A stretch of 21,784 nucleotides of DNA, from positions 1 to 21,784 of IMG/VR virus record IMGVR_UViG_3300007734_000465; one strand, written 5' to 3'. This document shows, piece by piece, positions 17,015-21,295 of this stretch (within the stretch, counting starts at the first letter, position 1; every line of letters starts with the position of its first letter). The notes under the pieces are model-generated. The model was not told where the DNA came from, did not search any database, and was given only the letters and a program-made list of their open reading frames with translations. Source of the DNA: a virus. The translations under genes were made by a program, and so were the position numbers.

Positions 17015-17107
17015 ATATTTACCTTTCTATTATTGTTGTTTTTGTTAAAGTTATGGAGTTTAATACAAAACCCCCCTTTTCTATTACTCACTTACTACTG
17101 CTATCTC

Positions 17108-17136
17108 GTTGGGGGTTCGAGCAAAACCCACCCAAC
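17108..17136. promoter_or_regulatory. Strong stem-loop near the leftward leader
   Basis: GTTGGG+GGTT pairs with AACC+CCCAAC around a 7-base loop (CGAGCAA), with a 2-base CA bulge. The G5 run here could alternatively pair with the C6 run at 17071-17076. If leftward transcription starts upstream, the 5' leader would contain both options, a possible attenuation or packaging-signal structure. Function is unknown. Confidence 0.5.
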
Positions 17137-17158
17137 TCAACTTTCTTGTTAGAAAGAA

Positions 17159-17182
17159 TTTATATTGTATTGTCTATATAAT
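17159..17182. promoter_or_regulatory. Candidate overlapping divergent promoters (-10 boxes)
   Basis: TATAAT at 17177-17182 reads rightward and TATAAA (complement of 17159-17164) reads leftward, inside an imperfect palindrome (TTATAT...ATATAA). The positions suit starts for both operons. No good -35 TTGACA is at 17 bp for either, so sigma70 use or an activator is uncertain. A T7-type promoter was not recognised. Confidence 0.4.
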
Positions 17183-17197
17183 TTACTTGCTTGTATC

Positions 17198-17232
17198 GTT
17201 GCTGTTCCCCTCACTTTGTGAGGGAACGCAAC
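17198..17232 (+). promoter_or_regulatory. Long stable hairpin in the early-gene leader
   Basis: GTTGC, GTTCCC and TCAC pair with GTGA, GGGAAC and GCAAC around a TTT loop, with single-base bulges T203 and C210. The 15-bp stem has no U-tract on either strand, so it is not a normal intrinsic terminator. It lies between the candidate rightward -10 and the first early gene, where it may stabilise or regulate the transcript. Confidence 0.65.
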
Positions 17233-17255
17233 TGATTATTGATTGTTAATAATCA
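17233..17255. promoter_or_regulatory. Palindrome, operator candidate
   Basis: TGATTATT and AATAATCA are perfect inverted arms around a 7-base spacer GATTGTT. The spacing suits a dimeric helix-turn-helix repressor, and an XRE-type protein is encoded at 18653-18973. The arm sequence recurs in the repeats at 144-159 and 193-208. Operator function is inferred. Confidence 0.45.
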
Positions 17256-17291
17256 ATTAACTCCCTGATATAACTAACTAAAGGAGATAGT

Positions 17292-17450
17292 ATGTATAAA
17301 AATGTACATGAAAAAGTAGCACAACTAGAGCTATTTAATGTATCAGAACTACCATTGATACCAATTCCTAAGAAAAAACCACATAATCATGATAGAAAGT
17401 TTGAGAACTATCTAACTAGATTTGTTGTTAAATACAAACGATTGAAATAA
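17292..17450 (+). CDS. 52-residue early protein with sliding-clamp-binding-like motif
   Basis: This is the first rightward gene, with AAGGAG 7 bases before ATG. The product begins MYKNVHEKVAQLELFNVSEL. Residues 11-15, QLELF, match the known bacterial beta sliding-clamp binding pentapeptide pattern QL(S/D)LF, with E in the variable position. A Pro/Ile/Lys stretch follows (LPLIPIPKKKP), then a basic C-terminus. Small phage proteins that bind the host clamp to redirect or stop replication are known in other phages. That role here is inference from a five-residue motif and the promoter-proximal position. No homologue is recognised. Confidence 0.6.
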   Translation: MYKNVHEKVAQLELFNVSELPLIPIPKKKPHNHDRKFENYLTRFVVKYKRLK

Positions 17451-18407: not shown

Positions 18408-18771
18408 AATAGTATATAGCCTACCATTTAGTGGCTTTATACAACAAGAGAGAATGAAATGGTGGACTCCGTATATTGAACACATGACGTATCAATCAAT
18501 CTTATATCCTAAACAAGGATATTTAGTTGTTATACGTCTAAATCATAAATCAAAAGAGCCTAACACCATAAGAGTGGTTACATCAAAGACAAGCAGCGAC
18601 AAAAGAGAGCTGTTTGTTTTAAAATCACTCTTTGGTACAGCGAAAGAAATATATGAGAAAAAACACAGAAGATATTCAGATAGCAAAGCATCTGTATCTG
18701 ATCAGAAAAAAAATGAAAAAAACATTAACACAAATGGCAGACATAATGGGGGTAGCATACCAACAGTATGA
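18343..18771 (+). CDS. 142-residue basic protein, unknown, overlapped at both ends
   Basis: ATG 18343 is chosen; a GTG at 18316 would add nine residues. The N-terminal 100 residues are protein-like: MYVITLKNRFKNKRVPLKRS, an aromatic cluster MKWWTPYIEHM, and a strand ILYPKQGYLVVIRLNH. The last 35 or so residues, encoded where the XRE gene overlaps, are low-complexity (Ser, Asn, Lys, Gly), as if dictated by the other frame. A run of eight A's (18706-18713) lies in the shared segment and could allow slippage into the XRE frame. No family is recognised. A basic, possibly nucleic-acid-binding protein is inferred from charge alone. Confidence 0.5.
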   Translation: MYVITLKNRFKNKRVPLKRSLEIVYSLPFSGFIQQERMKWWTPYIEHMTYQSILYPKQGYLVVIRLNHKSKEPNTIRVVTSKTSSDKRELFVLKSLFGTAKEIYEKKHRRYSDSKASVSDQKKNEKNINTNGRHNGGSIPTV

Positions 18772-18973
18772 TAAATACGAGACTGCAAAGAATCGTATGA
18801 GATGTGGTCATTTGTTGTTATTAGCAAAGCATTTTGGGTTAGACTTAAATCAATTCAAGCAAGATCCTAATCAATTTATTGATTTGACTGTGCATGAACA
18901 AGATAGAGTCAACGCAAAATTTGCCAGAATAGAAAGGGAAATAAATAATGAATCCATTATTTCACATAGTTAA
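18653..18973 (+). CDS. XRE-family helix-turn-helix regulator
   Basis: This is a 106-residue DNA-binding protein. The Cro/CI-type fold spans about 10-67: helix 1 IAKHLYLIRKKM, helix 2 TLTQMADIMG (24-33), turn, then recognition helix AYQQYDKYETAKNRM (35-49), and LLLLAKHFGLDLNQF. The C-terminal 40 residues are charged and may dimerise. ATG 18653 keeps the whole first helix; a later ATG would cut it. It overlaps the upstream gene by 119 bases in another frame. It could repress the early promoter or time the switch to the virion operon, with the palindrome at 17233-17255 as a candidate target. A lysogeny role is less likely as no integrase is seen. Confidence 0.8.
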   Translation: MRKNTEDIQIAKHLYLIRKKMKKTLTQMADIMGVAYQQYDKYETAKNRMRCGHLLLLAKHFGLDLNQFKQDPNQFIDLTVHEQDRVNAKFARIEREINNESIISHS

Positions 18974-20914: not shown

Positions 20915-21295
20915 ATGGCAACACCAGTATATCATGCTCAATCAAGTGTAAGTAAATGGGGTGGAACTTTAGATGATTATCTTCGAATCCATAATTGGTT
21001 CGATTTCACTAAAGCTTTCCATCCAGACTTTAGACATAGAGCATTAAGACACCACTCATTAGGAATACAAGAATGTATAAATGAGTTTGGTGATTACATA
21101 GTACTTAATTCTGGAAAGCACGTTCCAGTTAAATTAATTGCTGAACAGCATGTAATAGAAGATTGTGGCTATATACCATCCGTAAGCGACTGGTTAAGTA
21201 ATTTAACTCCAGTTGAATGGATGTCAAAAGCTAGAAACTTAAGTAAAATATATGGAGATAAAAATGAAAGATCAATTGCAAAAGTGGTTAAATAA
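20915..21295 (+). CDS. DUF6915-like protein
   Basis: This 126-residue protein is rich in conserved-looking His and acidic residues: H7 in VYHAQSSVSKWGG, H26 in DYLRIHNWFD, DFRHRALRHH (about 38-47), and AEQHVIEDCGYIPSVSDWL (about 76-94). I recognise this as the DUF6915 family of phage and bacterial proteins. The His, Asp and Glu pattern suggests a metal site, but no activity is known to me. The start ATG 20915 has no clear Shine-Dalgarno, so re-initiation after the 20335 gene is likely. Its 3' end overlaps the next gene. Confidence 0.7.
   Translation: MATPVYHAQSSVSKWGGTLDDYLRIHNWFDFTKAFHPDFRHRALRHHSLGIQECINEFGDYIVLNSGKHVPVKLIAEQHVIEDCGYIPSVSDWLSNLTPVEWMSKARNLSKIYGDKNERSIAKVVK

Follow-up and report, generated by a model that had tools for sequence, protein, structure and literature searches.

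What does a phage gain from a very small protein placed first among its early genes? The question is raised by IMG/VR virus record IMGVR_UViG_3300007734_000465, whose 21,784 bases form the window analyzed here (GC content 30-35%). An earlier note had pointed to QLELF, a pentapeptide resembling those that bind the bacterial sliding clamp, at residues 11-15 of a 52-residue protein, and both the gene and the motif are present as described:

17292..17450, + strand: open reading frame of 52 residues with an ATG start, at the head of the rightward (early) operon and the founder of a small phage family; protein sequence MYKNVHEKVAQLELFNVSELPLIPIPKKKPHNHDRKFENYLTRFVVKYKRLK
17322..17336, + strand: Q-L-E-L-F codons (residues 11-15), a canonical beta-clamp-binding pentapeptide in which Q11, L14 and F15 are invariant

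From sequence comparison, a conserved clamp-type docking motif in this small early protein appears well supported, and clamp (DnaN) binding is the moderately probable function of that motif. The term early refers here to a class suggested by gene order.

The presence of the motif alone is a weak argument, because one QLxLF is expected somewhere in every few genomes. QLxLF arises in 0.07% of shuffled versions of the 52-residue protein. It is found three times, including the 52-residue gene itself, in 636 proxy proteins (113,463 aa) of related phages, the proxies being the longest non-overlapping open reading frames of nine named phages and of a sister contig. With about 60 proteins per phage, a chance QLxLF is thus expected in perhaps one genome per five. 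The other occurrences, QLLLF in a 1085-aa protein and QLNLF in HTVC106P gp41, are buried deep in long proteins and were set aside as background. The case rests on conservation of the motif.

All nine IMG/VR homologues that are 71-100% identical to the protein carry QLELF. They are uninformative about the motif because much of the rest of the protein is also unchanged. Such closeness, together with about two further occurrences of QLxLF in 113,000 residues, is what would be seen if a common short pentapeptide had merely been preserved among near relatives. More distant homologues already disfavor this explanation and leave it very improbable, since Q, L and F persist in them at 31-50% identity, where most other columns have changed. 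Eighty large-terminase relatives were fetched, and their six frames were searched with the family profile. Homologues were found in eleven further contigs, on the strand opposite the terminase and beyond its 5' side, and more were added by pattern and alignment scans. The distant homologues also share the locus, being the first gene and divergent from the packaging genes. The final profile search gave 21 distinct sequences at E ≤ 1e-20, with noise starting at E 0.03. Every one of the 21 has Q[LY]xLF, in the forms QLELF, QLSLF, QLDLF, QLVLF, QLILF and QYSLF. This variation is spread over about 8 clusters at 70% identity, and synonymous codon changes occur inside the motif among family members. 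An alignment of 20 sequences has eight columns without variation (M1, Q11, L14, F15, P26, H31, H33 and D34); position 12 is L or Y, and position 13 is highly variable (S/D/E/V/I). The pentapeptide, whose loss from homologues would have spoken against the earlier note, is conserved: its Q, L and F account for three of these eight columns, and where it does vary is the position at which the clamp pocket is tolerant.

The same note had asked whether QL-x-LF is the most conserved part of the gene. It is conserved, but it does not stand alone in this, as P24-x-P26 ... H31-x-H33-D34 is about equally conserved. Two further features make up the rest of the protein:

17361..17393, + strand: second conserved block P-x-P-x4-H-[PN]-H-D (residues 24-34), with P26, H31, H33 and D34 invariant and a conservation about that of the pentapeptide
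17385..17444, + strand: predicted basic C-terminal helix (residues 32-51; AlphaFold2, low confidence)

The second block allowed a scan that made no use of the motif, with P..P.P....HPHD (the block plus P21 alone) as the query. All hits judged true members had the motif, membership being judged by eye from frame, length and context. Hits in unrelated, mostly high-GC reading frames were set aside by eye as chance matches. Outside the family, a tblastn search with three members against 50,697 phage records gave no match, and a search of genome contigs with one subgroup gave no relative. The 52-residue protein has no recognizable enzyme domain and no match in Pfam. A PDB sequence search gave nothing informative, and the best match in PHROGs (phrog_22934, unknown function, E 0.034) was not above a convincing cut-off.

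The pattern of conservation follows the rules of clamp binding. As summarized in a 2024 review, the canonical beta-clamp motif is Q-phi-x-[L/M]-[F/L], in which the third residue is the least important and positions 4 and 5 are the most constrained (PMC11139829). The family fits this motif except for Y at position 2 in one subgroup (QYSLF). Conservation lies at the positions that contact the pocket, with Q11, L14 and F15 invariant and position 13 free. QLDLF is among the strongest clamp binders (PMC11139829), and both QLDLF and QLSLF are present in the family. The likely target was examined in DnaN and DnaE proteins taken, as proxies for those of the probable host, from Pelagibacteraceae single-cell genomes that contain terminase relatives. 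DnaE carries QIDLF at about residue 912 in the three genomes with a full gene. In all four DnaN proteins, 11 of the 15 pocket residues listed by that review are identical to those of E. coli.

Several observations weigh against clamp binding. The position-2 Y of one subgroup is not aliphatic, and positions 174, 177, 246 and 344 of DnaN differ from E. coli. Retrieval of homologues by profile was partly biased toward motif-bearing sequences. The host is one that we infer. In two relatives (L110 and L111), the first early genes encode 52-residue proteins that have QLVYDY (L110) or no Q (L111). These proteins can be aligned with the family over their whole length and resemble its tail (hhalign probability 23%, E 0.0009 for a single comparison), and are plausibly orthologues at the corresponding locus in more distant phages. 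Plausible orthologues lack the motif, and it is therefore not universal. Five other relatives (L080, L105, L089, L065 and L119) have other short proteins as first early genes, with only faint resemblance to the family. True orthology of these various first-gene proteins would imply a gain or loss of the motif during the history of the lineage. Finally, folding could be another cause of motif conservation if a low-confidence helix over residues 4-14 is real. The AlphaFold2 model places helices at 4-14 and 32-51, with a mean predicted local distance difference test score (pLDDT) of 69 and a predicted template modeling score of 0.23, and is too weak for interpretation; over residues 1-20 the mean pLDDT is 58-64.

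These points bear on an explanation unrelated to the clamp, in which Q..LF is either structural, helping to form an amphipathic helix at the N-terminus, or a docking site for a different host protein such as RNA polymerase. The protein could then be a small early transcription regulator that acts with the hairpins in the leader upstream of its gene. The modeled helix, those hairpins, the basic tail and the possible orthologues without the motif are all in keeping with it. However, a third position free to vary beside a fixed Q, L and F obeys the rules of the clamp pocket, and there is no obvious reason why helix packing should require an unchanging Q. We consider this explanation doubtful.

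If the motif does bind the clamp, the genes that these phages carry suggest to what end. The sister contig (G001; 36,987 bases, a near-complete genome) has an identical copy of the 52-residue protein. DNA polymerase A and a clamp had no match in this contig and its relatives (15 records), and neither did polymerase B, polymerase III alpha or the C-terminal domain of DnaB (7 records). Phages of the HTVC010P type are described as being without a DNA polymerase and dependent on that of the host (PMC10504331), and Pelagibacter phage HTVC106P, the closest cultured relative by terminase (50% identity), is close to the HTVC010P type by the same protein. The next terminase, at 47%, belongs to a Methylophilales phage. 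A SAR11 host is plausible from these sequence relationships. Terminase relatives with 45-47% identity are also found in Pelagibacteraceae single-cell genomes (L200, CACMZL010000001.1; L201; L203), and the location of one of them in a 399-kb contig suggests an integrated prophage. At L021:14253-14630, the sister contig encodes a DUF968/Ref-like HNH nuclease, related to RecA-dependent nucleases.

In the mechanism that we propose, a small and probably flexible early protein would use Q-[LY]-x-L-F to dock in the DnaN peptide pocket, in imitation of the host polymerase DnaE and its own motif (QIDLF in Pelagibacteraceae). A second role, such as keeping hold of phage DNA or of a partner from either phage or host, would fall to the P-x-P...H-x-H-D block and the basic tail. 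Clamps would thereby be redirected to phage DNA and the clients of the host clamp outcompeted. Recruitment in particular, rather than blocking, takes up about half of the probability that we give to clamp binding itself. The motif evidence would serve equally well for a blocker that fills the DnaN pocket and shuts off replication of the host chromosome in the manner of SocB; the gene stands first on the early side, and host shut-off is a common early task of phages. However, searches of these phages turned up no DNA polymerase gene, so the host clamp is probably needed, and a full block would halt the replication of the phage itself unless it were timed or partial. A pure block would harm the phage because its group has no polymerase, clamp or DnaB match. 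We regard such a blocker as unlikely and think it likelier that the protein recruits the clamp or partly competes with host clients than that it blocks fully. More broadly, the family may tentatively be seen as a new one of phage clamp adaptors, by means of which aquatic phages without a polymerase would redirect host clamps to their DNA. Such an adaptor, a very small early protein, would carry at its two ends a motif like that of the host polymerase and a further conserved module. Pelagiphages are very abundant. If the proposal is true, a conserved early clamp ligand would offer a concrete and directly testable entry point into how the polymerase-less ones take over host replication.

Known clamp ligands provide partial parallels. 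DnaE, Pol IV, Pol V, Hda and MutS bind the bacterial beta-clamp and, like the 52-residue protein, carry a Q-phi-x-L-F pentapeptide according to the published consensus (PMC11139829). In contrast to them, the phage protein is without a recognizable enzyme domain and is a candidate ligand. Gp168 of Staphylococcus phage Twort attaches to the clamp in its DNA channel and not in the peptide pocket (PMC11139829). It too is small and phage-encoded and has the host clamp as its target, which for the 52-residue protein is a predicted one; compared by description only, the two differ in that the latter has a pocket-type motif. The Caulobacter toxin SocB inhibits replication (elongation) through the clamp (Aakre et al. 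2013, as cited in PMC9851616). SocB is a chromosomal toxin of a toxin-antitoxin pair, whereas the 52-residue protein is the product of a phage early gene. A T4-like clamp described from a methylophage (PMC9004378) is unlike the 52-residue protein. The open-licence literature yielded no description of a comparable pelagiphage clamp protein.

The surroundings of the gene are those of an operon start. The gene opens the + strand series on the right-hand side of a divergent gap of 277 bases (17015-17291), across which the packaging and virion genes are transcribed in the opposite direction. No sigma-70 consensus promoter was scored upstream of it; a TATAAT is present at 17177-17182. Two leader features lie between this TATAAT and the gene:

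17198..17255, + strand: two adjoining back-to-back stem-loops (GTTGCTGTTCCCCTCACTTTGTGAGGGAACGCAAC, then TGATTATTGATTGTTAATAATCA) in the minimum free energy fold, in the leader of the gene
17281..17286, + strand: ribosome-binding site AAGGAG, read from the sequence and kept in close relatives

The stem-loops might form an antitermination or regulatory leader. In distant relatives, hairpins of different sequence occupy the corresponding position. The pattern ACCCCCC ... TTGGGGGT ... AAAACCC is seen again in most relatives, within the divergent gap (17015-17200 in the window, and the related leaders). The small open reading frames adjoining the gene have no convincing family match in Pfam or PHROGs. 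Among the early genes scanned, the only clear family matches are a helix-turn-helix regulator at 18632-18973 and a 126-aa protein at 20915-21295, which strongly matches DUF6915 (PF21866, E 2e-41).
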